Origin: a virus
Length of the DNA: 64,000 nucleotides
IMG/VR virus record: IMGVR_UViG_3300022745_000020
Coordinates: 83,903-147,902 of that record
Reading direction: 5' to 3' (one strand)
Shown: in pieces, positions 25,273 through 63,961 of the stretch
How the letters are laid out: each line of letters begins with the position of its first letter
Numbering within the stretch: position 1 is the first letter of the stretch
Translations under genes and position numbers: made by a program
Notes under the pieces: model-generated
Seen by the model: only the letters and a program-made list of their open reading frames with translations
Told to the model about the DNA's origin: nothing
The model's database searches: none

Positions 25273-25286
25273 TCCTTACTACGTAA

Positions 25287-25318
25287 TGCATTTTTCTACA
25301 GTCGTATATTACTTAAGT
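25287..25318 (+). promoter_or_regulatory. Early-type phage promoter
   Basis: Core TATATTACT at 25305-25313, identical over eight bases to the phiKZ early core TATATTAC, with an ATGCATTTTT upstream box. The start codon at 25377 is 72 bases downstream. Confidence 0.78.
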
Positions 25319-25376
25319 GAGAGGAATTTCCTCATCAACCAATCAACCCTATCTTTACTCTACACAGGAGTACATC

Positions 25377-25610: not shown

Positions 25611-25617
25611 ATCCCCC

Positions 25618-25647
25618 ACAGGTGAGGTGCTCTCGCACCTCACCTGT
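25618..25647 (+). terminator. Stem-loop terminator
   Basis: Perfect 13-base stem ACAGGTGAGGTGC / GCACCTCACCTGT with a four-base loop, followed by CTTATCC rather than a T run. Confidence 0.6.
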
Positions 25648-25677
25648 CTTATCCATCGCCTTGAAAGGGAATGAAAC

Positions 25678-26004
25678 ATGGCATCAGAAATCCGTAAGGT
25701 CTATGATGACATCTGCGCAGCATTGCGCATTGTTGCCCCGGCACTGCAACACTACATGGAACATAAGGGTCACTCATGCTCACTGATCCTGTATGTGGTG
25801 GCCAGTCATCTGCCACATACCCAGAAGTGTTTGAACGATTGCGTGGACCTAGCGACAGTGATGCTCAAAGTCCATGGATGTGAAGTGCTACAGCCCTGGA
25901 GAGGAAATCCTCAAAGCACTGAGAACTACTACGGGTATGAGGCAGTTTACCAAAACTGCGAAACGGGCGGTACATTTACTGTGCGCATCTCATCGCACCT
26001 CTGA
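25678..26004 (+). CDS. Hypothetical early protein (108 aa)
   Basis: Starts MASEIRKVYDDICAALRIVA with AAGGGAATG upstream. It contains six or more Cys and His residues spread through the chain (HYMEHKGHSCSL, KCLNDCVDL, HGCEV), which could bind a metal, but the spacing does not match a classical finger. The C-terminus is beta-like (GYEAVYQNCETGGTFTVRIS). Unknown. Confidence 0.7.
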   Translation: MASEIRKVYDDICAALRIVAPALQHYMEHKGHSCSLILYVVASHLPHTQKCLNDCVDLATVMLKVHGCEVLQPWRGNPQSTENYYGYEAVYQNCETGGTFTVRISSHL

Positions 26005-26051
26005 CCCCCCTGCACACATAACGCGCTCACCAGCGCTAGGAGAATGACATC

Positions 26052-26291
26052 ATGACTTCACACCAAGAACAAATGGATGCATTGAGTGCTCGATTCATTG
26101 AGTTGCAAAAGGAACTCTGCCGCGTTCGCCTGAATGCTTGCCGAGCTGAGTTGCGCAACCCTCAGATCAACCACGTCGTGCGCAAGGAAGCGGAGAGTCG
26201 CATCCAAGCAGCTGCACGCAGCCTGAACACAGGTTCCCCCTGTGTGAGCCTGATTGTGCAGATCGAGCATTTGCTCGATCTGGATGAGTGA
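26052..26291 (+). CDS. Hypothetical small helical protein (79 aa)
   Basis: Starts MTSHQEQMDALSARFIELQK behind CTAGGAGAATGACATC. Almost entirely helical and charged (RLNACRAELRNP, KEAESRIQAAARSL). A terminator follows. It resembles the neighbouring 26364-27975 products in size and composition, possibly a diverged family. Function unknown. Confidence 0.7.
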   Translation: MTSHQEQMDALSARFIELQKELCRVRLNACRAELRNPQINHVVRKEAESRIQAAARSLNTGSPCVSLIVQIEHLLDLDE

Positions 26292-26309
26292 TACCCACCT
26301 CCATCATAC

Positions 26310-26349
26310 GGGGGAGCCTAGACAACTCCCCCCTTTCATTTACTCTTTT
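26310..26349 (+). terminator. Rho-independent terminator
   Basis: G/C-rich stem GGGGGAG / CTCCCCC with a nine-base loop, then a T-rich stretch ending CTCTTTTT. Confidence 0.7.
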
Positions 26350-26363
26350 TAGGAGAGAGCACC

Positions 26364-26663
26364 ATGATCGAATCGTTTCGTGACTTCGCCCCCACTGAGA
26401 CCGCCGATGACCATCGGACTCTGAGTGAGATGAACAAACCGCTCAAGACCTTCTACGTGAAGGATTTGATCTGCGCGCGCGATAGCGTGCTGGCCAACCC
26501 GTTCCTCGCCTACAATCACCTGAACATCGCCATGCTCAACATGCAAGTCTGTGCAGACATCACGCTGTGGAGTCGCACCAGTGAGATCCGTCACGATGTC
26601 TCTCGGGGTTTGCATCAGATGGCCCATCAAGCACTGGTCAATCTGTGTGATGAGTTGAGCTGA
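26364..26663 (+). CDS. Hypothetical early protein, paralogue of next gene (99 aa)
   Basis: Starts MIESFRDFAPTETADDHRTL after TTTAGGAGAGAG. The C-terminal half (RHDVSRGLHQMAHQALVNLC) matches the pattern in the next product (ERDLMIGLHHRAAHRLQSIV): R-D-x(3)-GLH-x2-A-x(2-3)-L. Both have an upstream helix of similar length, so I infer an ancient duplication. No catalytic motif; probably a small helical binding protein. Confidence 0.72.
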   Translation: MIESFRDFAPTETADDHRTLSEMNKPLKTFYVKDLICARDSVLANPFLAYNHLNIAMLNMQVCADITLWSRTSEIRHDVSRGLHQMAHQALVNLCDELS

Positions 26664-26691
26664 ACGTTATCTTATCTGAAGGAGTATCGCC

Positions 26692-26988
26692 ATGATCGAC
26701 CTGACTGTCATTTTGCGTCGCCTGTTCGACAGCGCCCCTGTGGCGACTCAGGTGCTCGCGCAGCCCACCTTGTACGAGCGCGCTCAGTCTCACGCTCGCA
26801 GTGCTCTGGAGCATATTCTCAGTAACAACTTGCCTCATGCGCAACGTGACATCTACATCAGCAATCAGTTGTTCAAGCTGGTTGACGATATAGATACACT
26901 GTGTGTAATCGGTCAAGTCGAGCGGGATTTGATGATTGGTCTGCATCATCGAGCGGCTCACCGCTTGCAATCGATCGTACTCAATTGA
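26692..26988 (+). CDS. Hypothetical early protein, paralogue of previous gene (98 aa)
   Basis: Starts MIDLTVILRRLFDSAPVATQ with AAGGAGTATC upstream. Predicted all-helical and shares the R-D-x(3)-GLH motif with the upstream 99-residue product. Last gene before the strong terminator at 27011. Function unknown. Confidence 0.72.
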   Translation: MIDLTVILRRLFDSAPVATQVLAQPTLYERAQSHARSALEHILSNNLPHAQRDIYISNQLFKLVDDIDTLCVIGQVERDLMIGLHHRAAHRLQSIVLN

Positions 26989-34798: not shown

Positions 34799-35029
34799 AT
34801 GTTCTCATCTGTTTTCAATTGGTCACTGGATCACTTCTCGATCGCGATGATCGGTGTGATCACCTTCTTGTTCACGATGTACATCGGGAGTGTGCTGATC
34901 CAAAAGTACCACTGCTGCGTCGGTGTCGATCAGCTGAACCTGGTGGACATCTACCGGAAGATCCTTCCGTTCATCGCGTTTTGCTCAGCCTGCGCTGGCA
35001 TGCTGATCGCACACCAGTGGGGATTGTAA
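34799..35029 (+). CDS. Small early membrane protein, two predicted helices (76 aa)
   Basis: The ATG at 34799 follows TTGCGAGGTCAATC and lies 75 bases after an early promoter. Two hydrophobic segments, about 13-34 (FSIAMIGVITFLFTMYIGSV) and about 55-71 (ILPFIAFCSACAGMLIA), are joined by a loop with two Cys (KYHCCVGVDQ). Small two-helix membrane proteins made early are candidates for superinfection exclusion or membrane remodelling, but that is inference. No signal peptide cleavage site is obvious. Confidence 0.65.
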   Translation: MFSSVFNWSLDHFSIAMIGVITFLFTMYIGSVLIQKYHCCVGVDQLNLVDIYRKILPFIAFCSACAGMLIAHQWGL

Positions 35030-35196
35030 GAAAATACCCACTGGTCGTATGTAGTAGATGGCTAAATCTACGAGACTCAAACCTCACACAAGGAGAGTGT
35101 ATGAAACACGATTCGGGCTGATCGAAGAGCTACCTTGATGTCACAGTAAGTGGAAATACCCTCCTCCGGTCCGGGAAGGGATCTTATACCCACTAC

Positions 35197-35220
35197 AACT
35201 CCTAGATGACTGGAGTTTTT
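35197..35220 (+). terminator. Short terminator hairpin
   Basis: Stem AACTCC / GGAGTT with a nine-base loop and a TTTTT end. It lies in the gap of about 290 bases between 35029 and 35320, which otherwise holds only a six-codon mini-frame at 35101. Confidence 0.55.
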
Positions 35221-35320
35221 CGCTTACCAAAACCAGCTCTCGTATAGAAACAAACGGAACTGGCTGGACATCAAAGTGCATACACACGTACATTTGAATA
35301 CCAACGAAAGGAAAATCCCA

Positions 35321-35794
35321 ATGAGCAAGACGAAAACCGCTGAAGGTCACGTGAGCGTGGCCGACATCTCCGCCAAGCTGCGCGACGAGGTCAAGGAAGT
35401 CGACGGCAAGCTGAACATCGACGGCGAACAGTACTACGTCCACGGCAACAACGAGGGGCTGAGTCGCCAGACACTCGACCACGTCGAGAACTACACCGGA
35501 CGCTACGCGGCTGCAGCTACTCTGGCCATCGGCAGCGCCGCGCACGACCTGATCGTCAACGGCGCCAGTGAGAGTGGAGTGGTCGAAGGTGCTGCCGAGA
35601 TCGGCCACAAGAGCCTGGAGGTGGTCTACAAGAAGGAACACTCCTTCACTCCCCCCGGTGGCGAAGCCCGTACCGTGCATGGTCACACCACTGTGCGAGT
35701 CGTGGACAAGCTCAAGGAAGTGCGTGCCGTTCGCAAGGAGCTGCAATCCGCAGCTGCTGCGGTGTGGGGAGCCCCCGAGGGCAACAACAGCTGA
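35321..35794 (+). CDS. Hypothetical protein, high-expression codon use (157 aa)
   Basis: Starts MSKTKTAEGHVSVADISAKL with AAAGGAAAATCCC upstream. Codons are strongly GC-biased, like the tail genes next door, so I expect abundant expression. Helical Ala-rich middle (YAAAATLAIGSAAHDLIVNG), beta-rich part (EARTVHGHTTVRVV) and a helical tail. Its Ala/Glu/Val composition would suit a structural or accessory virion protein. No signal peptide or known family. Confidence 0.75.
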   Translation: MSKTKTAEGHVSVADISAKLRDEVKEVDGKLNIDGEQYYVHGNNEGLSRQTLDHVENYTGRYAAAATLAIGSAAHDLIVNGASESGVVEGAAEIGHKSLEVVYKKEHSFTPPGGEARTVHGHTTVRVVDKLKEVRAVRKELQSAAAAVWGAPEGNNS

Positions 35795-35824
35795 TCGAAA
35801 GATCAGTCGACAAACAGAGCATAC

Positions 35825-35882
35825 ACCACCACACTGAGGATCACTCCTCAGTGTGGTGGTGATCATCTATCTATTTTTTTTT
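35825..35882. terminator. Bidirectional terminator hairpin
   Basis: Perfect 16-base stem ACCACCACACTGAGGA / TCCTCAGTGTGGTGGT with a four-base loop and a ten-T run at 35873-35882, between the convergent 35321 gene and the tail tube gene. Confidence 0.88.
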
Positions 35883-35890
35883 TCAGAATA

Positions 35891-36760
35891 TCACGAAGCG
35901 ATGACGGCTTGAGCCGCCAGAGACGCCGTCGAGCTGGCCAGGCCATTCATGTCAGGCTGGACCATATCGGCTTGGATACCCTTCAAGAAGGCACTGCGCA
36001 TCATCGGGTTGGCGTTGAGCTGGGAGATGTTGTTCATCACGGTCTGAGCCAGCAGCTCCACACCACGACCAGTCTGAGTCACGCCGGTCCATTGGATCGA
36101 GATCTCCAGATGTTCCATCCCGTTGGTGAGGTCACGCTTGCCCAGGATATCATTGGTGCCCTTTGGATACATACCAGCGGTCAGCCAGGCTTTGGAGACC
36201 TGGGTGTTGGTCGGATCGGGCTCCCAGCTCAGGATGGTCATGGAGTACATATCCAGCGTCATGGGGCCCACTGGTACACCGCTGACCGTGTTGATCATCG
36301 GAGTCTTGGTCTCCGGATCCATGATCAGATAGGTGATCCAGTCGTGCAGCATGTTCTGGAAAGGACGACCATACAGATCGACCACTGTGCACTGCGGATT
36401 GGTGCGCTCACGGGTGACGTTGGTGGGCGTCTCCAGGATCTCACCAGCCCCACCGACGGTGGACTCAGTGGTAGCCACAGTCAGGCCGCTGTTGAAGCCT
36501 TCCCAGGAGATGGCATGCAGCTCCACGAGGGACTTCAGTGCCGCCAGATAAAACTCACTGTTGGGCAGTTGCGAAAACCCCAGAGGGGCTTCCATGACCA
36601 TGTGGCGAGTGTGATTGCGCCGATACTTGGTCGAGCTGACCAGTTGCGACAGATCCACAGCGGTGCCATGCTGGCCACCGAAGCGTGGATCCAGGATGGG
36701 TTCTTGTCGACCATAGGCATAGGCCTTGTCGGTCATCAGAGCGTTGGGTAGACGAGCCAT
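35891..36760 (-). CDS. Tail tube protein (289 aa)
   Basis: Lies immediately downstream of the sheath gene on the same strand, the order seen in phiKZ (gp29 sheath, gp30 tube), and has a tube-like size. Starts MARLPNALMTDKAYAYGRQE with AAGGAGAG upstream. The C-terminal half (GKRDLTNGMEHLEISIQWTG) is beta-rich and ends in a helical, Ala-rich tail. Codon use is GC-rich as expected for a major virion protein. It forms the inner tube through which DNA passes. No motif is diagnostic; the call rests on order, size and expression-type codons. Confidence 0.75.
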   Translation of the reverse strand: MARLPNALMTDKAYAYGRQEPILDPRFGGQHGTAVDLSQLVSSTKYRRNHTRHMVMEAPLGFSQLPNSEFYLAALKSLVELHAISWEGFNSGLTVATTESTVGGAGEILETPTNVTRERTNPQCTVVDLYGRPFQNMLHDWITYLIMDPETKTPMINTVSGVPVGPMTLDMYSMTILSWEPDPTNTQVSKAWLTAGMYPKGTNDILGKRDLTNGMEHLEISIQWTGVTQTGRGVELLAQTVMNNISQLNANPMMRSAFLKGIQADMVQPDMNGLASSTASLAAQAVIAS

Positions 36761-36804
36761 ATAGACTCTCCTTTCGATGAGTAAAGTCGTGTGGTGAGGG
36801 TGTG

Positions 36805-36834
36805 GATGAGTGCTGTAACTCTACAGCACTCATC
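36805..36834 (-). terminator. Hairpin between sheath and tube genes
   Basis: Perfect 13-base stem GATGAGTGCTGTA / TACAGCACTCATC with a four-base loop. There is no T tract on the minus strand, so this is more likely an RNA-processing or attenuation signal that sets the sheath to tube ratio. Confidence 0.5.
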
Positions 36835-36841
36835 TCAGTGC

Positions 36842-38950
36842 TTAGGCAGCCAGATCGCTCATGCGACGACCGCGCACATCCAGGGTCATGACCGTCTTCA
36901 TGTTGTTGGCATACAGGGTGATCGGAAGCGACCAGCTGTAGCCACGCTGTGCATCGGCGTTGGTGATCTGGCACTCCGGGATGATCTTGTAGAGATCACA
37001 GAAGCGTCCGATCGTGCGTTCTTGCACGCGCTGATTCACCCGTTCGATGAACTGGGCATCGGTCAGACTGGTCTTGCCCGTGAATTCACGCCACACACGC
37101 TGACCCACCTTCTGCAGCTCTACAGCACAAGCCATGGTCAGGAAGGAGGTGAAGATAGAGGTGTCATCATCACACACCGTGTGGATGGCCGGGAAGAAGG
37201 TGTTTTGCGTGTCGTACGCTTGCACCCAGTTCAGCCCCAGAGCCCAGTCGGTGTTGCGGATGTGAGCGGGCATGAACGTGCTGTTGATGTTCTTAAACAT
37301 CGTCACACGGGTGTTGGGCCAGCTGTCCATCAGGGCAGTGGACTTCCACACACCGTTGCCAGCGCCCATCATCTTCGCAGCCATAGAGGCGACTTCGATG
37401 GTCAGGGGCAACTTACCCTTGTAGGCAGAGCCAATGAGCTCACCGTAGCGACCGACGATTGCACCACGGCGGATGCTCGTGCCGAAGTAGTCACTCTCCG
37501 GATACATCTGCAGATAGCCCAGCAGCACAGCTGCAATCGAGCTCTCCTGAGAGCGAGTAAGCTCAGGTCCGCCGACCGTATAAGTCGACAGCACCACGGC
37601 CGTGTCCTTGCGCTCAGAGATGAATTGGCACAGAGCACGCTTGGTCGTCAGCGGGAAGCCCGTGTCGTAGAGGAACGACTCGGGATACATCGCATCGTCT
37701 TGATACTTGTGATTGGGGTCGGCGTAGGCGGCCACAGCAGCACTCACTGCAGTGGCAAAAGCCGTATCATTCATCGTACCGTCAGAGCCACCGGCTGCGT
37801 AGAGGTTGGTGCTCTCGCTGGGCCAGATAGAGCCAGCCGACGCGGTATCGATCTGGAAGGTGTGATAGGGCTCACCCGTGCTGTAAGTGCCGCTGAGCAG
37901 GTTGACCAAGTACTTGGTGGCGCCCGCTACCTTGAGCTCGGAGCTCACAGCCACAGCCGCACTCTCATCGGCAAAGACCGTTTGCAGGATCTGCTCGATG
38001 TTGGCCGTGTACAGATGCATCTCCCCGAAGTCACCGAAGTTAATCGGAGCTGCGGCATTATCGATGTTACGATACGAATCCGGGAAGACCTTACCCAGGC
38101 TCACTTCGACGTTGGTGGTGGGGTCAATCGCGCCTGGCTTGAGCACGAATTCCACAAACTGATCGCCGCCTTGAGTCGATACAATCTTGGCCGTATCCTT
38201 GGAGGTGGCACGACGCGCCACAGCCAGACGGAACGGGTAAGCCCCCACCTTCTCCATGAGGGTGGAGTTGATTGCGTTGTTCGACAGGGCAGTGGGCGCC
38301 CACAGGCGCAGTGCAGCATCGTTGCCACGCTTACCGTAGCACGAAGCGCGGATCTCAGCGATCGGGTACTTGGTACCTTGCACGGGCGTGGCGTCCAGGC
38401 TCAGCAGAGTACCAGCACCAGAGCTCACTTGACCGAAATTGGCTTCATCGCTCAGGGCAGAGACGTTAGACAGGCTCCACTTGGCCAGATGACCTTGAGT
38501 CCATTGAGGAGCACCACCGGTGGTCGCTTGCACAGGCAAGCCGGTGATGGCGTCACGGGCATAGGTGCCATCGGAGTTGCGCTGATACACGGGCAGACGG
38601 CTGGCCACGATGTCCAAGCTGAGCAGCAAGTTAGAGCGAGGCCCCACATCAGCAGGCAAGATGCGCTCGATCATCTGGGCACTGCCAGCTGCCGAGAGGG
38701 TGTTGCTCAGCACGGTCTGGTGATTCGCATACTCGCTGCGCAGATCAAACGTGTCCAGGCCAAAGATATTGGTGCGCATGGCGCCCGCGACGAGTTGAGC
38801 GTCGGTGGGGCCCCATGCAGCGTAGATGTAGACCTTGGCCAGGTGGGTAGGCAGACCCACTTCATCGACCACGGGCGTGCGAGTGCTCAGGTCTTGGATA
38901 CCGCGCGCGATGACCATCGGCGCGGCGTTGACGATACGAGTAGATGCCAT
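36842..38950 (-). CDS. Contractile tail sheath protein (702 aa)
   Basis: Size, order before the tube gene and domain layout fit phiKZ-like sheath proteins (phiKZ gp29, about 700 aa). The N-terminal domain starts MASTRIVNAAPMVIARGIQD, a large variable insertion occupies about residues 100-330, and the C-terminal domain carries the conserved sheath core (TDWALGLNWVQAYDTQNTFF, ERVNQRVQERTIGRFCDLY, SLPITLYANNMKTVMTLDVR). It assembles around the tube and contracts to drive DNA entry. AAGGAGTCC precedes the start at 38950. GC-rich codons indicate high expression. A long open frame on the opposite strand is a shadow. Confidence 0.8.
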   Translation of the reverse strand: MASTRIVNAAPMVIARGIQDLSTRTPVVDEVGLPTHLAKVYIYAAWGPTDAQLVAGAMRTNIFGLDTFDLRSEYANHQTVLSNTLSAAGSAQMIERILPADVGPRSNLLLSLDIVASRLPVYQRNSDGTYARDAITGLPVQATTGGAPQWTQGHLAKWSLSNVSALSDEANFGQVSSGAGTLLSLDATPVQGTKYPIAEIRASCYGKRGNDAALRLWAPTALSNNAINSTLMEKVGAYPFRLAVARRATSKDTAKIVSTQGGDQFVEFVLKPGAIDPTTNVEVSLGKVFPDSYRNIDNAAAPINFGDFGEMHLYTANIEQILQTVFADESAAVAVSSELKVAGATKYLVNLLSGTYSTGEPYHTFQIDTASAGSIWPSESTNLYAAGGSDGTMNDTAFATAVSAAVAAYADPNHKYQDDAMYPESFLYDTGFPLTTKRALCQFISERKDTAVVLSTYTVGGPELTRSQESSIAAVLLGYLQMYPESDYFGTSIRRGAIVGRYGELIGSAYKGKLPLTIEVASMAAKMMGAGNGVWKSTALMDSWPNTRVTMFKNINSTFMPAHIRNTDWALGLNWVQAYDTQNTFFPAIHTVCDDDTSIFTSFLTMACAVELQKVGQRVWREFTGKTSLTDAQFIERVNQRVQERTIGRFCDLYKIIPECQITNADAQRGYSWSLPITLYANNMKTVMTLDVRGRRMSDLAA

Positions 38951-39246
38951 GAAGGACTCCTTGTTTCGGGGACTGGAATGTGAGAAAAATAGTGTCTCAA
39001 ACGAACTGATTGCTCAGAAAAAGCCTCTTAAAGATGAAGGGGATCATTATGATTACCGCCCGTATGAGCACATGCAGAACCCTATCAATCGATTGATGTA
39101 TTTTATCACAGTGCCATATATAGATACCTCATTGATCTGACAGTCACAGGATCTCTATTTATATATGCACTACACCCGACGGATCTTATGATCACCCACT
39201 CAACCGATCTGTGGCCAGAGTCCACTTACATGGAGCACACCTCAAA
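38951..39246. other. Divergent non-coding gap (296 bases)
   Basis: Region between the sheath gene (minus) and the 39247 gene (plus). No convincing gene found. It holds AT-rich blocks (CATATATAG near 39115, TTATATATGC near 39158) that could be late or middle promoters, but no clear early-promoter core. Confidence 0.5.
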
Positions 39247-53493: not shown

Positions 53494-53570
53494 ATGCTCT
53501 CTATCTTTAAAAATAGAGTCGATCCATGAGGTGTTTCGATATAAGCGATGTGTGTGAAGGAAGATTAAAC

Positions 53571-55721
53571 ATGACAAAATTCGTAGATCCATTCGTGCTG
53601 CCTGTGGATCAGTATCGCAGGTGCATCAACCCGCTGGGTGACTACAAGGCAGATGCGGTGAGGTACCTGATGCTCATCAGCGGGGATGATGAGGCCTCTT
53701 GCACTCAGGCTGTGGAGCGCATGCTCGCTAAGGGTGGTGAGTTTGAGTTCAAAGATCCGAAGGTGGAGTACTTTGAGCGCGGTGAGAGTAGGGATCGTGA
53801 GCGCAAGGTGTCGAGCGCACTGAGGTACATCGGTGAGTCGATTAAAAGCGAAGACATCATCGCCCCTACGTTTACTACCTACATGCCTGCTAAGAGAAAG
53901 CGCTCTATCTTATCCATCGACGTGGATGAGAAGATCCGACTGCGCAGTGTGGCTAAGAAGGCTATGTTCAAAGCCCGTGCTCAGGGCGATACCTTCCATG
54001 CGAACTTCTACAAGAACGAACAAACGCAGCGCAAGCGCAGTAACAACTCACTGAGCGGGGCTGCTAACTCCACAGGTACTCCTTTAGCGAATAAGACGTC
54101 TCACAGCTCACTGACGAGCACGTGCCGCATCACCAGCGGCTACGGCAATGCTAACAACGAGAAGCTCCTCAGTGGCAATCGCCACTACTATCGCCACGAT
54201 CTGGTGATCAATAACATCATCTCGATCATCGGGCACACTGACTACGTGGCATTGAGTGCTGTGGTGGATAAGTACGCTCTACGCGTCCCTACTGTGGATG
54301 AAGTGATGAGCTGTATCACCTACTCTACAGATCTGTACTGGAAGTCGAGTCTGTGGTTAGAGCAAATCCGCACACTGGTGCAGAAGTTAAATGGACTGCA
54401 GCGTGCTGCATTTGTCTACACGGGTGATCTACACCAGGTGAGGATACTCAATCCGGATTTCATGAAGGTGTTTCTCGCTCAGCTGTGTAAGCGCTGTGAT
54501 TGCGATGATCTACCGGGTGCTCTCGATATCATCAAGTCCGCTATGGATAGTCACATCAACTTGGCTCATCAAATCTGCTCTGACTGCGTCAAGGGGCGTG
54601 GTAAGGAGTATGACAAGATGAGTCATACAGAGCTATCCACCATCGCAGCCACACTGAACAACATCGCTCAGGTGGTGATGAAGTACGCTGACTTTATCAA
54701 AGTCATCATGGTGAGTCCAAACATGCCCACCAATGTGGGGCAGTTTCCTCACTCCACTCGCAGGTCTGCAGTCACTTCCGATACCGACTCGACGATCTTT
54801 ACGGTGCAAGACTGGATCTCTTGGTATACAGGGGGTGAGTACTTTACGCCTGAGGGGATTGCTATCCAAGCAGGCATGACATTTCTGGCCAGCAGCGCAA
54901 TCACCCACTTGCTGGCGATGATGAGTGCGAACATCGGAGTGGAAAGAGATAAGCTCTTTCGTATTCAGATGAAGAGTGAATTCCGATTTGATGTGTTTGT
55001 GCCCACAGGGGTGGCGAAAACATACTTTGCATCGATTGCCTGTCAAGAAGGCGCTGTGTTCGAGCACAATGAACTCGAGATCAAGGGGGTGATGCTCAAA
55101 AACAGCAACAACCCAGCCGATATCAATGAGCAAACCAGTGACATGATCGAGCGCATCATGGAGACAGTCCGAGCGGGTAAGAAGATCCGTCTGCTGGACT
55201 ATATCCGCGAGGTCGCCGCTGTCGAGCAGCGCATCATGGCCTCAGTGCTCAAGGGTGAGACTCACTATCTGAAGTCGCTGAACATCAATTCAGATGAAGC
55301 TTATAGTGCCGATCCTGAGGATTCGCCGTTCCAAAACCATTTGTTCTGGGAACAGACATTCCAGGGCAGCTATGGGGTGATCAAACCGCCTCCATATAAG
55401 ACTTCGAAGATCTCACTGACACTGAAGAACGCGCAGTCGATCAAGAAGTGGCTCGATGAGATGGAGGACAAAGCTCTGGCTGAGAGACTGCGAGCATACC
55501 TCCTCAAGAAGAACAAGACATCATACTTGACCTTCTATGCTCCTGAGGAAGTGTTAGATAAGGCAGGAGTGCCCAAGGAAATTGCCTGTGTGGTCGATGT
55601 CAGAAAGATCGCCTCTCAGTTGTGCAAATCCTTCTATCTGATCCTAGAGACTCTGGGGGTGTATATCCACCAGAAGGATCTCAGGCGTCTGGCCAGTGAC
55701 TTGTTACAAGAATCCACTTGA
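53571..55721 (+). CDS. Split family B DNA polymerase, C-terminal part (716 aa)
   Basis: The ATG at 53571 (MTKFVDPFVLPVDQYRRCIN) follows AAGGAAG; an ATG at 53526 has no site. Motif B is visible at 155-164 (KRSNNSLSGA, matching K-x3-N-S-x-Y-G although the Tyr is Ser here). Motif C is SDTDST (D404, D406). The thumb-proximal K-x-Y block reads VAKTYFAS (about 483), with ELEIKGVMLKNSNNP after it. Neither the 3'-5' exonuclease motifs nor motif A (D-x2-S-L-Y-P) is in this chain, so they must be on another gene. It copies phage DNA together with that partner. Confidence 0.82.
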   Translation: MTKFVDPFVLPVDQYRRCINPLGDYKADAVRYLMLISGDDEASCTQAVERMLAKGGEFEFKDPKVEYFERGESRDRERKVSSALRYIGESIKSEDIIAPTFTTYMPAKRKRSILSIDVDEKIRLRSVAKKAMFKARAQGDTFHANFYKNEQTQRKRSNNSLSGAANSTGTPLANKTSHSSLTSTCRITSGYGNANNEKLLSGNRHYYRHDLVINNIISIIGHTDYVALSAVVDKYALRVPTVDEVMSCITYSTDLYWKSSLWLEQIRTLVQKLNGLQRAAFVYTGDLHQVRILNPDFMKVFLAQLCKRCDCDDLPGALDIIKSAMDSHINLAHQICSDCVKGRGKEYDKMSHTELSTIAATLNNIAQVVMKYADFIKVIMVSPNMPTNVGQFPHSTRRSAVTSDTDSTIFTVQDWISWYTGGEYFTPEGIAIQAGMTFLASSAITHLLAMMSANIGVERDKLFRIQMKSEFRFDVFVPTGVAKTYFASIACQEGAVFEHNELEIKGVMLKNSNNPADINEQTSDMIERIMETVRAGKKIRLLDYIREVAAVEQRIMASVLKGETHYLKSLNINSDEAYSADPEDSPFQNHLFWEQTFQGSYGVIKPPPYKTSKISLTLKNAQSIKKWLDEMEDKALAERLRAYLLKKNKTSYLTFYAPEEVLDKAGVPKEIACVVDVRKIASQLCKSFYLILETLGVYIHQKDLRRLASDLLQEST

Positions 55722-55732
55722 TGCATCATAGC

Positions 55733-55783
55733 ACTCATCCACCTCCCTGTCATAGGGGAGGTGGATGAGTGTATGTTCTTTTA
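55733..55783. terminator. Bidirectional terminator hairpin
   Basis: 15-base stem ACTCATCCACCTCCC / GGGAGGTGGATGAGT with an eight-base loop between convergent genes, followed by GTATGTTCTTTTAGTTTT on the plus strand. Confidence 0.82.
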
Positions 55784-55786: not shown

Positions 55787-56881
55787 TTACTCTGTCAACA
55801 TAGCCAGTAGATCGGCGATCTTTAGCTGAGTGGAGATGAGTTGATCTCCATAGAGTTTACTCTCTAGAGTAGCAGGTACATGATACTGAGTCAGACTGCG
55901 TTTAAAGTCCGCGAGGTTCATTTTGTTGGTGGAGATCTTTACATCCTCAGGGCGCAGCTCGGTGAGCTTATAGAATTGATCTAGACGCGAGAGTACGAGT
56001 GACCACATCACCTGCTGGGTGTAGAGCATCTCAGGTAAGATCAATGCGTGATGCATCGTGGGTGAGTATAGGCTGGGGATGTTGCTCAGCAGGTGATGGT
56101 ATTCCCCATTGACCTTGGAGAGGTTATACAGGATGCGACTGAGCACTCGATCGAGTTGGGCTTCACAGTCCACCAGAGCCATCGGGGGCGGGTTCAGTAT
56201 CTCATAGTGGGAGATAGATCCATCGGACTTATCAAACAGGCGATTGAGCAGGGCGATCTCCATGTGACTGGGGATCATGTTTGGTAAGACGTACCTAGAT
56301 AGAAAGATCTGCTTACCCGTAGCGTCTTGATTGTGATCGACTGTGAGCATCTGCAAGTAGCAGTGATACTGAATCGCCAGTTTCAGCAAATCGACTGCGA
56401 TGACTGCCATACCCGACTGACTGGAGTGGTCTCTGCCATCGAGGATGGGGATAGAGATGTCGGATTTAGGATGAGTCAGCACAGTGGTGCTGTCGAGGTC
56501 TTGCCAGTGCTCGGCTGCATCGAGTTCATCGAAGCTGCCGATGTAGCCGATATACAGCTCAGTGATGTGGTGATCGTAGAAGTGAGCTGCGCTGGTGTGC
56601 CCAAAACTCACCGAGGTGCTCCACCCGAGTTGAGCAGCATACCTCAGTAGGGTAGGTTTGATGTTAGTGATGTACGCTTGCAGCGGGGCTTGTGCATCCA
56701 GATTCAGCTCACTGAGTAGTCTGATAAACGGATGAGTGGCTTTGACTGGCTTGACCTGATGACGTTGCCAGGCTTGTACCGTGCGTACGTTGTGCTGGAT
56801 GTTTCCACTGACTAAATCCCAGAGACTGGGCTTGAGGATGGCTACAGCCACAGGGCTGACGCTTTCGAACAGATTGATCAT
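55787..56881 (-). CDS. Hypothetical protein, probable virion component (364 aa)
   Basis: ATG at 56881; upstream minus-strand sequence has AAGG 12 bases away and no stronger site. Starts MINLFESVSPVAVAILKPSL. Mostly helical with His-rich stretches (FGHTSAAHFYDHHITELYIG) and a helical C-terminus (LKIADLLAMLTE). No catalytic motif. It lies between the DNA polymerase and the early region, in reverse orientation. A virion role is a guess from length and composition. Confidence 0.68.
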   Translation of the reverse strand: MINLFESVSPVAVAILKPSLWDLVSGNIQHNVRTVQAWQRHQVKPVKATHPFIRLLSELNLDAQAPLQAYITNIKPTLLRYAAQLGWSTSVSFGHTSAAHFYDHHITELYIGYIGSFDELDAAEHWQDLDSTTVLTHPKSDISIPILDGRDHSSQSGMAVIAVDLLKLAIQYHCYLQMLTVDHNQDATGKQIFLSRYVLPNMIPSHMEIALLNRLFDKSDGSISHYEILNPPPMALVDCEAQLDRVLSRILYNLSKVNGEYHHLLSNIPSLYSPTMHHALILPEMLYTQQVMWSLVLSRLDQFYKLTELRPEDVKISTNKMNLADFKRSLTQYHVPATLESKLYGDQLISTQLKIADLLAMLTE

Positions 56882-57129: not shown

Positions 57130-57402
57130 ATGATGGGAATTCAAGCCTACATCACCATCGAAGACATGGTGAAAGCCGGATGTACAGTCACGACCACACA
57201 CCAGATCCATGAGGCTGGTATGGAGGATGAATGGGTGGATATCAATCATGAAGTCACCTTTCCCAATGGGGAGGTGCGCAGCTTTCACGGACTGATTCAT
57301 GACAAGTACACTTGCTGGATCGATGCGAACCACTGGGGTGAAAATCGACGCACGCACCTGAGTCTGCTCGATCAATACGGAATCAGCTATCGCGAGTGGT
57401 GA
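57130..57402 (+). CDS. Small early protein (90 aa)
   Basis: ATG at 57130 or 57133, both after AACAGGAGAGTAG. Starts MMGIQAYITIEDMVKAGCTV. Beta-rich and acidic (DINHEVTFPNGEVRSFHGLI), ending in a basic/aromatic stretch (RTHLSLLDQYGISYREW). It sits alone behind the early promoter, just ahead of the chimallin promoter. No family recognised. Confidence 0.72.
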   Translation: MMGIQAYITIEDMVKAGCTVTTTHQIHEAGMEDEWVDINHEVTFPNGEVRSFHGLIHDKYTCWIDANHWGENRRTHLSLLDQYGISYREW

Positions 57403-57496
57403 ACACCTCTGAACTGGACAAACCATGCTCTTGTACCATTACTCCAAAGAACAGTATGACCACCTTCTCACCCCTCACCCATAGGAGATGACGTAA

Positions 57497-57530
57497 TCTA
57501 AAAAATTACAGTCCCATATCATCATAGTGA
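57497..57530 (+). promoter_or_regulatory. Early-type promoter of probable chimallin gene
   Basis: AAAAAATTACAGTCC followed by CATATCATCATAG; core CATATCATC at 57515-57523. The start codon of the major early gene is 132 bases downstream, so its leader is the longest of the set. Confidence 0.75.
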
Positions 57531-57646
57531 GCAAGATCACAACTGTCCTTTAAACGGGATGGTCGAGCTTACTTGCTCTGACGTCAGAAAAAGTGTTTCC
57601 TCTAAGTGTTTGTTTTTCCCCTGTTCTACAGCGAAAGGTCATGACC

Positions 57647-59332
57647 ATGAATACCCCTTCGAACACCGCTCGTTCGTTCTCCACGACTCTGCCGGGCGCC
57701 ATCCTCAGCCTGGGTACTGTCTCGGGTTCCACCCAAGTCGCAGTCGATGCCATCACCAAGTGCATCAATGCCATCAAGCCCCAGATCCCGATGATGGATC
57801 TGGCTGTGGTCGGGCTCGACCGCGCTCAGACTCAACTATACTTCAGCAGCGTGGCCATCGTCGACAAGATCTCGCGCGCCGCGGTGGTCATCTTGCTGGC
57901 GGCTTCGAACAACCCGCTGCCCTGGGTCAACGAGACGGTGCCCAATGGCGTCATCTCCGTGCCGGTGACTCCGGCGGACTCCATCGATAGCCAGTTCTCC
58001 ATCACCGTCAGTCAGACCCTGGGCAACATGTTCGGTAAGGGTGAGGCTCTCACTCTGAACTACCTGGTGGCTCCGCGGGTGCTGCAAATCACCGAGGAGA
58101 CGATGGCTGCATACGTGGTGCAAGCCGCCACCATCATCTATCGCTGCGCCAACCAAGTCGAAGATCTGGATCTGTCGCGCTATGGTGCAGCATCCTTCCT
58201 GGCTGTGAACGCCAGCACCGCAGTGCGTGAAGAGATCGGACTGGATGGCCTGCCGCGCTTTTTCACCCACACCATCACGGTCTCGGGTGGGCAGCAAGCC
58301 GCCGGTGGCAAGAACCGCATCAACGACACCGCTCAGCGCACCATCGTCGAGGTCAACGCCTTTGTCGATGCAGCTTGGGCACCGGGCCCTCGCGGTGGTG
58401 TGCAAGGTGCGCCGATTGCCCACTATATCCCTCGCGCTATCTTGCGCCAAGGTCGCAACAACGCAGGCAACTCGATCGAGTCGCATCTGCTGGGACTGGC
58501 CGCAGCCACTTGCCTGGGTAACCAACAAGCTTGGGCTGCTCAGTATCTGGGACGTCACCCCCTGCTCAACGTCGGCGCGCTGCTGAGCGATCCGTCTATC
58601 GCGGGTAAGACCCTGGATACGACGGCGGCAGACGTCACCATCGAAGACATGTACAAGCTCATCGGTGAGCTGTTCCAGCCGACGATGGTGTACTCGATGG
58701 CGATCCCGCGCTACTCCATCACGGCCATCGGGCAAGAGGTCTTCGTTGCTGCATCTCGCGGTAACGCTGATGCGAATGCGGAAATCATCGCCTCAGCCAA
58801 CCGTCTGACGGGAGGCCACTTCGGTACATTCTTCCGTGGCACTCGCACGGTGGTGGTCAATGGCAGTCCTGATAACGGCAATGACGATGTCATGGCCGTG
58901 GGCACGTGGCTCGACAACGAGCAGCGCCTGAACAGCACTGGCAAGATCGACAACGTGGTGGGCTTCATGTGCCGAGCTGGTGATCAAGGCGCAGGTGCTT
59001 TGAGCGCCTACACCGAGACCAAGATGACCTCCAGTGGTCCGGCTCGCGTACGTCTGGCCAAGACGCAAGCGCTGCTTCATCAACTCACGGGCGGCTACCC
59101 CATCGAGATCCATGACGTCGAGCGTCTGGTGACCTTCACTCGTGAGTTCATCGACGCGCTGAGCCAAGCTGTGCAGGCTTGCACCATCAAGCTCAACGTC
59201 AATATCACCAACCCGATGACCAATGTCCAGATGCGTCCGTCGTTCACTCAGGCATTTGACCTGTCGGTCGTGGGCGTGAGTGGTGGTATGCAGCAGCGCG
59301 CTGCGAGCTACCAGGGCGGCGTGAGCTGGTAA
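57647..59332 (+). CDS. Probable chimallin, phage nuclear shell protein (561 aa)
   Basis: A highly expressed early protein: an early promoter, strong GC-biased codons and its own double-hairpin terminator. It begins MNTPSNTARSFSTTLPGAIL (ATG 57647, eight bases after AAAGG; an ATG at 57641 is close). The N-terminal 160 residues are an alpha/beta domain (LAVVGLDRAQTQLYFSSVAI), followed by a second domain with many beta strands (SMAIPRYSITAIGQEVFVAA). Chimallins are about 600 residues, and the next gene is a non-virion RNA polymerase subunit, as phiKZ gp54 precedes gp55. No catalytic motif. The alternative, a major capsid protein, is less likely because that would be late and would carry a cleaved propeptide. 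Confidence 0.68.
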   Translation: MNTPSNTARSFSTTLPGAILSLGTVSGSTQVAVDAITKCINAIKPQIPMMDLAVVGLDRAQTQLYFSSVAIVDKISRAAVVILLAASNNPLPWVNETVPNGVISVPVTPADSIDSQFSITVSQTLGNMFGKGEALTLNYLVAPRVLQITEETMAAYVVQAATIIYRCANQVEDLDLSRYGAASFLAVNASTAVREEIGLDGLPRFFTHTITVSGGQQAAGGKNRINDTAQRTIVEVNAFVDAAWAPGPRGGVQGAPIAHYIPRAILRQGRNNAGNSIESHLLGLAAATCLGNQQAWAAQYLGRHPLLNVGALLSDPSIAGKTLDTTAADVTIEDMYKLIGELFQPTMVYSMAIPRYSITAIGQEVFVAASRGNADANAEIIASANRLTGGHFGTFFRGTRTVVVNGSPDNGNDDVMAVGTWLDNEQRLNSTGKIDNVVGFMCRAGDQGAGALSAYTETKMTSSGPARVRLAKTQALLHQLTGGYPIEIHDVERLVTFTREFIDALSQAVQACTIKLNVNITNPMTNVQMRPSFTQAFDLSVVGVSGGMQQRAASYQGGVSW

Positions 59333-59352
59333 GGTGATTTGAAAAGGGACGC

Positions 59353-59376
59353 AGTCACATCTTCACGGATGTGACT
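59353..59376 (+). terminator. First stem-loop after chimallin
   Basis: Perfect nine-base stem AGTCACATC / GATGTGACT with a six-base loop, 20 bases after the stop. Confidence 0.55.
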
Positions 59377-59387
59377 AGTCATAGCAC

Positions 59388-59438
59388 AGTGAGTGTATGA
59401 GGGGATGACCCTCATACACTCACTATTCTTTTTTTTTT
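59388..59438 (+). terminator. Strong Rho-independent terminator after chimallin
   Basis: Stem AGTGAGTGTATGAGGG / CCCTCATACACTCACT, five-base loop, then a T run at 59428-59438. Confidence 0.9.
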
Positions 59439-59491
59439 GTCACGTTTGAAAAAATAGAGTCTAGCTCAATAAGATACAATGGGTGTGGTCA

Positions 59492-59526
59492 CTGCAGAAA
59501 GTTTCAAACATATATTATCTATTTGC
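59492..59526 (+). promoter_or_regulatory. Early-type promoter of non-virion RNA polymerase gene
   Basis: Core TATATTATC at 59511-59519 with upstream ACTGCAGAAAGTTTC. Fifty-seven bases before the ATG at 59568. Supports early expression of the second RNA polymerase. Confidence 0.78.
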
Positions 59527-59567: not shown

Positions 59568-61082
59568 ATGGGAATCGGCATCGTACAGATCAATCAAGAG
59601 CGTGACATCTTCAACCACATCAAAGAACCTGTCATCTTCCTCAATGACATCCCAACGACCAATGAATCCGATCGAGAAGCTGGAGCTAAACTCACCAGCA
59701 TCACCTTTGCTCACGATGATAGCTTTGATGTAGTGCCCACTTGTGGGTGCGGGAAGTACAAAGGTGTGGTCTATATGGACGTGGTGTGTGAGCAATGTAA
59801 CACCAAAGTCACGGATCTGCTCAGTGAGGACCTCACGCCCAAGGTGTGGATCCGCACTCCCTTGAAGGTCAGTGGACTGATTAATCCACACGCACTGACT
59901 CTGATGCAGACGACCTTTAAGATCAAGACATTCAAGATCGTACAGTGGCTCATCGATACCACGTATAATCCGAGGAACGTAGCGGATTTGAACTTGAGGG
60001 CTTTCGAAGAGATGGGGGTCTCACGGGGATACAACTTCTTCTTCGAGAACTTCGAGTTGTGTATCCAAGCCATCCGTACGTTTTTATTTCGCTATCGGGG
60101 CGTGTTGCGCAAGCGTGAGCGCAATCCCAACTATATCCTGGAGAAAGCCGACCAGACCATCGATGATCTGGCTGAGCTGATGCTCCAAGATGCCAATACC
60201 GTACGCACTCAATATATCGCAGTGCCCAATAAGTCCATGATGATCATCGAGAGTACGGCCACAGGCACATACATCGACCCCATCGTCGTGGCAGCCAAAG
60301 ATGCCATCAACATGGTCACAGGCATAGATACTTCACTGTTTGTGAATCAATCTCAGCGCCTGCGCGAGAACCGAGTGGCTAAGATACTGCTGAAGTTGAG
60401 TGAATACTATTCAAGTTACATCTCGACGGCTTTGGTGAAAAAGGGCGGCGCGTTTCGCAGACAAGTCTATGGCTTTCGCACGCACATGTCCATGCGAGCG
60501 GTGATCACCGCACTGACTAAGCCGCATAAGTACAACGAGTTGCATCTGCCGTGGGGGCGCAGTCTGGTGACGTTCTATCTGCACATCTCCAACGAGTTGT
60601 TTCGCAGAGGTTATCAGGAAAACGAGATCCATGAGCGCATCAGCCGTGCTCACTTTCACTACGATCCGCTGATTCGGGAGATCTTCGATACCATCTTGGC
60701 TGACTACGGCGGTGAGATCCCTTTCTACTGGAATCGAAACCCCTCACTGCATCGAGGCTCGTGTGAGCTGATGATGGTCACTCAGATCAAATCCGATATC
60801 GATGACTACACCATCAGCCATCCAGCGACCAACGTGGCTGCATTCAATGCCGACTATGACGGCGACCAGATGACAGGTGTAGTGCTCGATAAGTACCAAG
60901 CCAGGCTGGCTGCTGGGCTCAGACCGCATCACTCTGTGGCCGATCTCAATAAGGTCAATAAGATCGGCAATCAGATCGCACTGCCTCGACCGTTCCTGTA
61001 CACGGTCTTTAAGTGGTGGCGCGATGCCGATCGCAATCGCACACCAGAGCAAGAGAAGTTCTTGCAAGCTCTGTACGATTGA
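59568..61082 (+). CDS. Non-virion RNA polymerase beta' subunit, N-terminal catalytic part (504 aa)
   Basis: Zinc-ribbon cysteines C59, C61, C74 and C77 match the beta' N-terminal finger. RNPSLHRGS (about 390) matches the beta' R-x-P-x-L-H-R segment, and NADYDGDQM (N427, D429, D431, D433) the catalytic magnesium loop, closer to bacterial beta' than the virion-type GADHDGD at 14099-15721. The protein ends soon after, so the C-terminal half of beta' must be elsewhere. ATG at 59568 has AAAGGAGTACCC upstream. Early promoter and position next to the probable chimallin gene match phiKZ gp55, a subunit of the polymerase that reads later genes. Confidence 0.85.
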   Translation: MGIGIVQINQERDIFNHIKEPVIFLNDIPTTNESDREAGAKLTSITFAHDDSFDVVPTCGCGKYKGVVYMDVVCEQCNTKVTDLLSEDLTPKVWIRTPLKVSGLINPHALTLMQTTFKIKTFKIVQWLIDTTYNPRNVADLNLRAFEEMGVSRGYNFFFENFELCIQAIRTFLFRYRGVLRKRERNPNYILEKADQTIDDLAELMLQDANTVRTQYIAVPNKSMMIIESTATGTYIDPIVVAAKDAINMVTGIDTSLFVNQSQRLRENRVAKILLKLSEYYSSYISTALVKKGGAFRRQVYGFRTHMSMRAVITALTKPHKYNELHLPWGRSLVTFYLHISNELFRRGYQENEIHERISRAHFHYDPLIREIFDTILADYGGEIPFYWNRNPSLHRGSCELMMVTQIKSDIDDYTISHPATNVAAFNADYDGDQMTGVVLDKYQARLAAGLRPHHSVADLNKVNKIGNQIALPRPFLYTVFKWWRDADRNRTPEQEKFLQALYD

Positions 61083-61127: not shown

Positions 61128-61715
61128 ATGAATCCTGCAGATGAACTAGCCGATGCATTGTTATTTCCCACGATGCTGCAAAGCAATGTGGATTATCTAC
61201 GTAGCCAGTTTGCACACATCTCCACCATCACCGATCCCGTGCAGCAGCAATTCCTGCAACAAGCACGCGCTGCGATGGAGGCCAATTACGGACTAGAGGC
61301 TCAGCTGCGCAAGCAACGCCTAGTCATGGAGAATCTAGGGTCTGGCTATGCCAGCAACAGCACCATCTTGCCGCTGCAAGACATCGACGACTTCCAAAAC
61401 GCCAGTCTGCTCATGCAGCAGTACATCATGGCGTGCCCCGCTGTGCATGAGAAGTACACCTCTCAGCAAATCGAGGGATACTATCAAACATACGTCGATC
61501 CCTGTATCGATATGCCACTGTGGAGCAATCCCTATCACCAGCAAATCGCTGATGGTCTGGTCATGGAAGATGGCACGGTATCTCACATCGCCGATGAAGA
61601 TATTCCCAAGCTCAGTATGGCTGAGTATATGACTGTACTCACTGTGTGGGACAACGCAGAGGCCCTACTGCAGGGTCAGTACGACCCCACCAGTCCCACT
61701 AATGCGCAGATCTAA
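61128..61715 (+). CDS. Hypothetical protein (195 aa)
   Basis: Starts MNPADELADALLFPTMLQSN after AAAAGGAGAATC, 45 bases after the polymerase subunit stop, so in the same early operon. Mostly helical (VQQQFLQQARAAMEANYGLE) with a Tyr-rich region (QIEGYYQTYVDPCIDMPLWS). No motif recognised. It could be a polymerase partner by position only. Confidence 0.72.
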   Translation: MNPADELADALLFPTMLQSNVDYLRSQFAHISTITDPVQQQFLQQARAAMEANYGLEAQLRKQRLVMENLGSGYASNSTILPLQDIDDFQNASLLMQQYIMACPAVHEKYTSQQIEGYYQTYVDPCIDMPLWSNPYHQQIADGLVMEDGTVSHIADEDIPKLSMAEYMTVLTVWDNAEALLQGQYDPTSPTNAQI

Positions 61716-61748: not shown

Positions 61749-62147
61749 ATGCGCAATGTACCTGTCCCATCGATGAGCACTGCTGGATGGATCAATGACC
61801 CCACCAGCAAGCTCGATCGACTGCTGTCGTATTACTTCACGAGTCTGCGAGACCAAGATGCACTGCATCGTGATGTGATCAAGTCTGCTCAGTATGACTT
61901 GGCTGTGAGCTCCTACAAGCCCAGCGCTGCTGTGGATACGATGGCTGACTCCATCAAGACACTGATGAGTCCATACTTCAGCAGTGTGACTGTCTCAGTC
62001 ACCACCAATGCTGATACAGTAGCCGACAGTCAAGCTACTGTCTTTATTGTGATTGAGTTCAGCGACACTGGCTACACCGACATGGTGTCGTATGTGTACG
62101 ATCCACGACTGATGAAATTCACCAAGGTGGTGGATCAGCTCCAGTAG
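61749..62147 (+). CDS. Hypothetical protein (132 aa)
   Basis: Starts MRNVPVPSMSTAGWINDPTS with ACTGAGAGTG upstream. Helical N-terminal half (KLDRLLSYYFTSLRDQDALH) followed by strands (PYFSSVTVSVTTNADTVADS). The layout is faintly like small baseplate-wedge or tail-connector proteins, but I cannot place it. Ends with TAG, one of the few in the window. Third gene of the operon. Confidence 0.7.
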   Translation: MRNVPVPSMSTAGWINDPTSKLDRLLSYYFTSLRDQDALHRDVIKSAQYDLAVSSYKPSAAVDTMADSIKTLMSPYFSSVTVSVTTNADTVADSQATVFIVIEFSDTGYTDMVSYVYDPRLMKFTKVVDQLQ

Positions 62148-62190: not shown

Positions 62191-62240
62191 CACCTGACCT
62201 GAGGAGATACACTCCCTCAGGTCAGGTGATGTTTCTTTTT
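62191..62240 (+). terminator. Rho-independent terminator
   Basis: 14-base stem CACCTGACCTGAGG / CCTCAGGTCAGGTG with a ten-base loop, then GTTTCTTTTTG. Confidence 0.85.
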
Positions 62241-62262
62241 GACTCTAAACATGAGGGTAGAC

Positions 62263-62796
62263 ATGGCCGATACCATCCGCGATATCAATCGCCGTAATTT
62301 GGATAAGCGCAACAGTGGGTTGCTCGAAGTCATCAAAGATAATAAGTATGTCAATGTGCGCACACTCACAGAGGCCAACTTCATCAAGTTCTTCTTACCT
62401 TACTTCAGTGGTAAGGTGGCAGTCACCAAAGAAGTGATCGATGCATGGGGCACCATCGCAGGAGAACTCGATCGCCCAGTCGATCTGATCGATGCAGCTG
62501 GGCAGATCATCGCTCGTGTACCTCCAGTAGTGAGTGTCGATGCGTATGTACCCATCGTCACTCGTCGTGTGGGTATCCACCATGAACTCGAGCTTTCCAC
62601 CAAAGGCTCTATGCCCATGGGGGAGAATTACATGTACGCTGCTCTGACTCAGCGCCTAAAGCAGATGTATAAGCAGGGTGATAAAAGCCAGCAAGAAAAG
62701 CAATGGGCAACATTTCTAAAGCGCTACGGCATCGATGTAGATACTGCGGCAGCACCGACTGGCAGCGATCCCGATGACCTCGAATATGAGTACTGA
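62263..62796 (+). CDS. Hypothetical protein (177 aa)
   Basis: ATG at 62263 with GAGGGTAGAC upstream; an in-frame ATG at 62251 lacks a site. Starts MADTIRDINRRNLDKRNSGL. Helical with a beta-rich middle (VVSVDAYVPIVTRRVGIHHE) and an acidic tail (GSDPDDLEYEY). Overlaps the start of the nuclease gene, so translation is coupled. No family recognised. Confidence 0.72.
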   Translation: MADTIRDINRRNLDKRNSGLLEVIKDNKYVNVRTLTEANFIKFFLPYFSGKVAVTKEVIDAWGTIAGELDRPVDLIDAAGQIIARVPPVVSVDAYVPIVTRRVGIHHELELSTKGSMPMGENYMYAALTQRLKQMYKQGDKSQQEKQWATFLKRYGIDVDTAAAPTGSDPDDLEYEY

Positions 62797-63961
62797 GTAT
62801 AGCCGACAGCCCAAGCATGATGGGTATATCCACGTGGCTTGTGTATCTGATATCCACCTGGAGAGTAAGCGCACACCCACGGACTTGATCATTCGAAACT
62901 TAAACACCTATTTGACCAACGATCGGGTGTTTAAAGACTTGGATGTGCTGTTCCTAGCAGGAGACGTGTTTGACAACAACATCGCCCTATCTAGACCTCA
63001 CTGCACATCGGTGATGTCATGGATGCAGCATCTGATCTTGTTGAGCATCAAGCACAAGGTGTGTGTGCGGGTGTTGGAGGGCACTCCCTCTCACGATCGC
63101 GCTCAGAGTAGGCACTTCATCACCAAGCGAGATGATATTTATCATGCCGTAGGTGTGAGGGCCGATATCGAGTACTTCGATACGCTCAGTGTAGAGGCTT
63201 TGGTGTTCACCAATCGCACTTTGCAAGTGCTCTATGTCCCCGATGAGTGGGGACCTGCTCAGTCTACGCTGGAGCAAGTCGATGAACTCATGCACTCCAG
63301 AGGTCTGAATCGATTCGATTTGGCTGTCATGCATGGGACTTTTGATTTTCAAAACCCCATCATTGCGCATCACGCGGGCACTCACAAGTCCGAGGAGTAC
63401 AGCAAGCGCGCTAAGTTGATATTCATTGGCCATGAGCACACTGCACGCACTCAGGGCAATATCATCGCTCAGGGCAGTTTCGATCGCCTAGAGCATGGTC
63501 AGGAGCAACCCAAGGGCTATATCCGAGTCAAGATCTTAGAAGACGACTCTTATATCGCTCAGAGGGTGGTGAATAAAACAGCCGCTGTCTTTAAGACGAT
63601 CATCTGTAAGAGCGATGATGTTGAGGCCATGTACGAGGATGTCCACGCCACAGCCAGGTCTTTGGAAGACGGCTCTCATGTGTGCATAGAGACATTCAAG
63701 TCCAGTGCGATGGCTCAGTCTCTGACTTATTTTGAGCGCAACTATCCCCAACATGTATGGAAGCTGTCTCTAAAGGACAGTAAAGCCTCTAAGGAGATAC
63801 TGGCTGACGCCACCCTCACTCAGATACCTTCTTCCATCGTTCTCAATGAGCATACCTTACTGGGGCTGTGCGAGCAGCAAGCAAAATTCAAGTGTGTGGC
63901 CGATGGTGATATCGCTGGGGTGTTAGATATCATCAAACAGGTCATGCAGACATCAAAATAA
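62786..63961 (+). CDS. SbcD/Mre11-type nuclease, recombination endonuclease subunit (391 aa)
   Basis: Calcineurin-like phosphoesterase motifs are in the right order. SDIHLE (D22, H24) is motif I, LAGDVFDNN (D60) motif II, EGTPSHDR (98-105) stands for the usual GNHD motif III with a Thr/Pro insertion, VMHGTFDF is the next His motif, and GHEHT closes the set. Length suits an SbcD, T4 gp47 or Mre11 protein with a capping domain. It would process DNA ends with an SbcC-type ATPase partner. Two in-frame starts exist (62774 and 62786), neither with a strong site; the second is taken. The next gene begins 28 bases later and may be that partner. Confidence 0.85.
   Translation: MSTEYSRQPKHDGYIHVACVSDIHLESKRTPTDLIIRNLNTYLTNDRVFKDLDVLFLAGDVFDNNIALSRPHCTSVMSWMQHLILLSIKHKVCVRVLEGTPSHDRAQSRHFITKRDDIYHAVGVRADIEYFDTLSVEALVFTNRTLQVLYVPDEWGPAQSTLEQVDELMHSRGLNRFDLAVMHGTFDFQNPIIAHHAGTHKSEEYSKRAKLIFIGHEHTARTQGNIIAQGSFDRLEHGQEQPKGYIRVKILEDDSYIAQRVVNKTAAVFKTIICKSDDVEAMYEDVHATARSLEDGSHVCIETFKSSAMAQSLTYFERNYPQHVWKLSLKDSKASKEILADATLTQIPSSIVLNEHTLLGLCEQQAKFKCVADGDIAGVLDIIKQVMQTSK

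Follow-up and report, generated by a model that had tools for sequence, protein, structure and literature searches.

Chimallin builds a nucleus-like shell around the DNA in some large phages, and it is, to our knowledge, the only protein of a bacterial virus known to build such a compartment. In PhiPA3, the N-terminal segment (NTS, residues 19-36) joins neighbouring subunits inside the tetramer, while the tetramers are linked by a β-hairpin, a loop, and the C-terminal tail. Deletions of these linking segments impair assembly, and the loss of the N-terminal 37 residues abolishes it (PMC9938867). The tubulin PhuZ is present in only about two thirds of Chimalliviridae (PMC10299810), and membership without PhuZ is possible. 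Regarding transcription, the early promoters of AR9 show the layout AAATATATATTAT-6N-G (PMC5312081), and in phiKZ the start is located 6 nt after the consensus element (PMC5312081; PMC7598289).

The gene analyzed here lies in a window of 64,000 nucleotides (the whole stretch of DNA under study), taken from IMG/VR record IMGVR_UViG_3300022745_000020, a fragment of 147,902 bases whose end is also the end of the window. Its product is almost certainly ChmA, also called chimallin or PhuN, the principal protein of the phage-nucleus shell, from an uncultured phage of the Chimalliviridae lineage. An earlier sequence-only reading had proposed this name from gene order, size and expression pattern; it is now supported by the sequence profile, the predicted fold, the gene order, and the promoter (Table 1).

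Table 1. Features of the chmA locus, in window coordinates.
Feature	Position	Strand	Evidence
DNA polymerase, phiKZ gp50 position	53526..55721	+	PHROG 2927, E 4.8e-236
phiKZ gp52-like, on the reverse strand as in relatives	55787..56881	-	PHROG 3938, E 7.6e-48; tblastn to gp52-position genes
Small ORF, 90 aa, without family match; preceded by an early-type promoter of its own with core at 57067	57130..57402	+	
Early-type chmA promoter with core CATATCAT at 57515-57522, an A-rich box upstream of it and, after 6N, G 57529 as predicted start	57495..57529	+	Matrix score, conservation, layout
Probable ribosome binding site (AAAGG), with a spacing of 8 nt to ATG 57647	57634..57638	+	Sequence
chmA, chimallin / nuclear shell protein	57647..59332	+	PHROG, Pfam, PhuN and AF2 matches
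ChmA residues about 3-24, the segment N-terminal to the first core helix, modelled with low confidence; putative PhiPA3 NTS counterpart	57653..57718	+	AF2, alignments
ChmA C-terminal tail (residues 527-561), disordered in model, ends in Trp; putative counterpart of lattice-linking tail	59225..59329	+	AF2, alignment
Hairpin pair downstream of chmA; the second, at 59388-59424 and followed by a T run, is an intrinsic terminator	59352..59438	+	
Early-type promoter before the RNA polymerase gene, with core TATATTAT and G 59525 as predicted start	59491..59525	+	Matrix, relatives
Non-virion RNA polymerase beta'-like subunit, phiKZ gp55 family	59568..61082	+	PHROG 2987, E 1.4e-117
phiKZ gp59-like	61128..61715	+	PHROG 3254, E 3.2e-23; PhiPA3 gp55, E 1.8e-10
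FLC9 gp379-like, phiKZ gp62 position	61749..62147	+	PHROG 3294, E 2.7e-20; E 3.1e-10
FLC9 gp378-like, phiKZ gp64 position	62239..62796	+	E 1.5e-5
SbcD-like nuclease subunit, phiKZ gp65	62774..63961	+	PHROG 100, E 2.5e-27; FLC9 gp377, E 4.1e-63
Early-type promoter sites in window (further copies elsewhere in record)	378, 22728, 34722, 49918, 57067, 57513, 59509	+	

When searched alone, the protein matches PHROG 4795 ('nuclear shell protein', E 1.5e-26), the Pfam family PF25677 (Chimallin_Phikzvirus, 34.7 bits over a cut-off of 27), and, with phmmer, the solved PhuN from PhiPA3 (8fne, E 1.5e-9). The sequence-only reading had suggested such a profile search while stating that the name rested on no residue signature; a profile signature is present, and it is clear. 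A 49-row alignment of metagenomic ChmA proteins, used as a profile, recovers all four sequence sets of solved chimallins at E 3e-86 or better. Searches by tblastn against 50,697 phage records returned a single weak match, gp382 from Burkholderia phage FLC9 (21.5% identity), the only isolate phage reached in this way. When FLC9 gp382 served in turn as the query, 110 records matched, and in many of these the annotation reads nuclear shell protein or chimallin.

The AlphaFold2 (AF2) model of the protein (pLDDT 80.8, pTM 0.82, with low confidence for residues 1-24 and 527-561) shows the small N-terminal domain and the acetyltransferase-like domain that define the chimallin fold. Comparison with solved structures, also suggested by the sequence-only reading, yielded nine PDB matches at E<=0.001, all of them chimallins (201phi2-1, Goslar, and PhiPA3; TM 0.72-0.80). 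Because the alignment given to AF2 consisted of ChmA relatives, this fold match depends in part on the sequence match; the single-sequence matches are independent. The next PDB match has an E value of 0.067, and the best match to an HK97 fold that had been named as a refutation did not occur. The viral structure library BFVD points to the same family, its leading named matches being proteins from Noxifer, Eowyn, and two Ralstonia phages, RSF1 and RP12.

The open frame encodes 561 amino acids plus a stop codon, as had been read, and it is the only ChmA copy in the record. Alternative starts at ATG 57641 and GTG 57593 were rejected, since the spacing from AAAGG favours the ATG chosen. The claim of GC-rich codons also holds: chmA has a GC content of 0.60 and a GC3 of 0.74, among the highest in the window (GC 0.52). 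In relatives, the GC of chmA exceeds that of its own locus by 0.09-0.16 in five out of six cases, and by 0.06 in the sixth. The major head gene of the same phage exhibits an equal skew (0.61/0.74), so that the bias is most simply explained by the codon use of abundant proteins. The 'double terminator' that had been described downstream is partly confirmed: both hairpins (59352-59377 and 59388-59424) are strong (fold z -8.35), but on this strand a T run follows only the second one. Another strong hairpin of 18 pairs, terminator-like, is found at 55731-55772, where the DNA polymerase gene and the gp52-like gene converge.

The gene neighbourhood reproduces that of described Chimalliviridae. The order DNA polymerase, gp52-like, chmA, RNA polymerase beta', gp59-, gp62- and gp64-like, and SbcD is that of PhiPA3, Noxifer, RAY, Eowyn, and others. 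Both the beta' gene following chmA and the phiKZ-type order had been predicted by the sequence-only reading, and both were confirmed, the latter by the match to PhiPA3, RAY, and relatives. With a chimallin gene and the core block polymerase-gp52-chmA-RNAP-gp59-SbcD in the PhiPA3/RAY order, the phage shows two of the features by which Chimalliviridae are recognized. The window also encodes a tail sheath, a head protease, a terminase, and large RNA polymerase subunits, and the core capsid, terminase, sheath, protease, helicase, and RNA polymerase genes are present. Three RNA polymerase beta/beta'-like proteins are found in the window (PHROGs 2986, 3148, and 2987), a count to be read in the light of the record being a fragment, in which no gp68 homologue was found. 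PicA is a core gene of the family and encodes the protein import factor of the shell. No PicA match appears in the record, which ends one gene after the start of SbcD and before the place expected for PicA; a PicA homologue is present in six of six related contigs, at a place beyond the end of this record. In the L028 contig (G002), a single in-frame TAA interrupts the PicA-like match at 34854-36170 within a frame of 1051 codons; the gene may be split there, or the assembly may be wrong. The shell-associated ChmC was not found in the record, and PhuZ tubulin had no match in the 148 kb fragment, the contig L022, or the 270 kb contig L055. Elsewhere in the window, the largest ORF (2531 aa) occupies 6251-13846 on the minus strand, and a 730-aa open frame (36791-38983, plus strand) runs antisense to the tail sheath gene (36842-38950, minus strand), probably as a by-product of GC-rich codon use.

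An early-type promoter had been proposed upstream of chmA. A motif matrix was built from the word CCTATATCATC, repeated among the intergenic k-mers, and the site at 57513-57523 scores 27.5 with the matrix derived from eight other sites of the record (leave-one-out), versus a top score of 16.7 when the full 148 kb record was Markov-shuffled 20 times and both strands were scored. These scores bear out the promoter, whose early class is suggested by its motif. About 14 copies of the motif occur in the record, mostly 40-120 nt before ORFs, and the high-scoring ones are all on the plus strand; the sites at 57067 and 59509 precede the 90-aa ORF and the RNA polymerase gene, respectively. A generic sigma-70 scan of the plus strand before chmA found no host-type promoter. 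The exact octamer TATATTAC, which we take to be the phiKZ early motif, occurs only three times in the record and was dropped in favour of the recurrent CCTATATCATC. As in the early promoters of AR9 and phiKZ, a start G lies beyond an AT-rich core, separated from it by 6 nt. This genome differs from the published core in preferring TATATCAT/TATATTAT, and, in a comparison made with the published core-6N-G layout only, it adds a ATTGCANAAA-like box located upstream, about 18 nt from the core on its 5' side.

The same promoter was then sought across genomes with a matrix trained without the chmA and RNA polymerase sites, ranking all positions of both strands (18,000-44,000 per locus). The region upstream of chmA ranks first in 27 of 52 distinct metagenomic loci (0.57 first ranks being expected from area alone) and among the top three in 49. 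In isolate phages, it ranks first in 12 cases out of 15 and second in the other three. Column-shuffled matrices gave 0-5 first ranks in 58 metagenomic loci, compared to 30 with the true matrix, and the region upstream of the DNA polymerase gene, scored with this same matrix, ranked first in none of the 58. That an early-type promoter of chmA is common to the whole family is a conclusion well supported by motif comparison.

The protein itself is very divergent. Relatives were gathered from IMG/VR with the DNA polymerase as bait, which produced 80 loci, 58 of which carry a gene matching the ChmA profile downstream of the polymerase (most of the others are short loci). The window ChmA, used as the only bait, retrieved no related locus, and the alignments of ChmA and of the RNA polymerase contain no stretch conserved enough to serve as bait. 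The closest ChmA found is at most about 25% identical over the aligned length. With 561 aa, the window protein is the shortest of 64 full-length ChmA compared, and it has the longest end branch in the ChmA tree. In the DNA polymerase tree, the window belongs to a group of seven rows, all metagenomic and with a support of 97, with L022 (IMGVR_UViG_3300050144_000109) as its nearest neighbour; FLC9 is missing from this tree, the fetched FLC9 locus being without the polymerase. L022, likewise uncultured, is also nearest in the ChmA tree (support 99), and in both phages promoters precede the chmA and the RNA polymerase genes. Nevertheless, in comparison with the 53% identity of their DNA polymerases, the L022 ChmA (613 aa) is only about 25% identical. 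FLC9 gp382, annotated as a hypothetical protein, shares the gene order from chmA through SbcD but has 641 aa and matches over 80% of the query. Among pairs with 40-50% polymerase identity, the median identity is 26% for ChmA versus 39% for the RNA polymerase, and, when divergence is measured relative to the DNA polymerase of the same phage, only one of 60 ChmA proteins exceeds that of the window. Judged from these sequence comparisons, ChmA is the fast-changing gene of a conserved block in which the DNA and RNA polymerases change more slowly.

Compared with PhiPA3 gp53, 201phi2-1 gp105, and Goslar ChmA/PhuN, the window protein is matched by profile and fold over almost the whole chain, and it shares the gene neighbourhood, the single copy, and the upstream early-type promoter. 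In contrast, it has 561 aa instead of about 600-630, shows 16-19% identity in the alignment, and is shortened in its N-terminal region, in the loop between the domains, and in its C-terminal tail. Putative counterparts of all four PhiPA3 linking elements were placed in it by alignment, each of them short. In L028 and L065, neighbours in the polymerase tree, the ChmA N-terminus is shorter still: by alignment, the first core helix is preceded by about 12-16 residues, so short a stretch that part of the NTS may be lost.

These reductions could also fit a ChmA homologue that in this lineage has lost lattice assembly and taken on a different role, with the phage nucleus absent or made in some other way. 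The shortest length among the full-length proteins, the longest end branch, and the divergence relative to the DNA polymerase are all compatible with such a loss, as is the fact that both tails are shorter than those of PhiPA3, whose protein cannot assemble without its N-terminal 37 residues (PMC9938867). We consider this explanation very unlikely. The record holds no second ChmA copy, the promoter, position, and high-expression codon use have all been kept, and about 18 potential NTS residues remain together with a 35-residue tail carrying a terminal aromatic residue. Still less credible, to the point of being negligible, is a virion structural protein (an HK97-fold major capsid protein or a scaffold) located before the polymerase gene by chance: the size of about 560 aa, the strong expression signals, and a codon skew equal to that of the major head protein would suit it, but the significant PDB matches are chimallins only, no capsid appears among those in PDB or BFVD, the promoter class of chmA precedes early-type genes and not the capsid gene, and the head protease, terminase, tail sheath, and major head protein (record 24575-26794, PHROG 3231, E 7.8e-180) are separate genes, the last of which removes this rival.

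Points that weigh against a ChmA are the low identity to any known member, the short end segments of low model confidence, the partial dependence of the fold match on the sequence match, and the absence of PicA, ChmC, and PhuZ from the record. For the product as ChmA, homology, fold, gene order, and promoter conservation are established here, and from them we infer expression timing, assembly, and enclosure as follows. Most likely, the virion RNA polymerase would transcribe chmA at the start of infection from its upstream promoter, as the motif suggests for both its class and its timing, and transcription would stop at the hairpin after the gene. By analogy with described chimallins, ChmA tetramers would form through the core and the N-terminal segment, and the C-terminal tail would link neighbouring tetramers into a two-dimensional sheet. 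This sheet would enclose the replicating DNA and exclude DNA-cutting defences. The trimmed subunit would be expected to give the same lattice as PhiPA3, and, by homology, this phage is predicted to form a shell and thus a phage nucleus.

Taken jointly, these data can be read in a way that we propose tentatively, finding it plausible but somewhat doubtful. One type of chmA promoter, with an upstream ATTNNAAA-like box besides the known core-6N-G, may be kept across Chimalliviridae much better than the ChmA protein itself, and no rule of the phage nucleus may be conserved more strongly than the timing of chmA expression. In this lineage, ChmA itself may have been reduced to something close to a minimal shell subunit, its N- and C-terminal linkers cut short.

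The protein family was already known, and what is new is a far-off member from a lineage known only from metagenomes, a modest novelty. So divergent and short a ChmA helps to tell which residues and tail segments the lattice needs. In addition, the comparison of promoters offers a simple test of early chmA control across the family, and the promoter motif provides a handle for chmA in contigs in which the protein has diverged beyond recognition. With this lineage, the uncultured diversity of nucleus-forming phages is widened.
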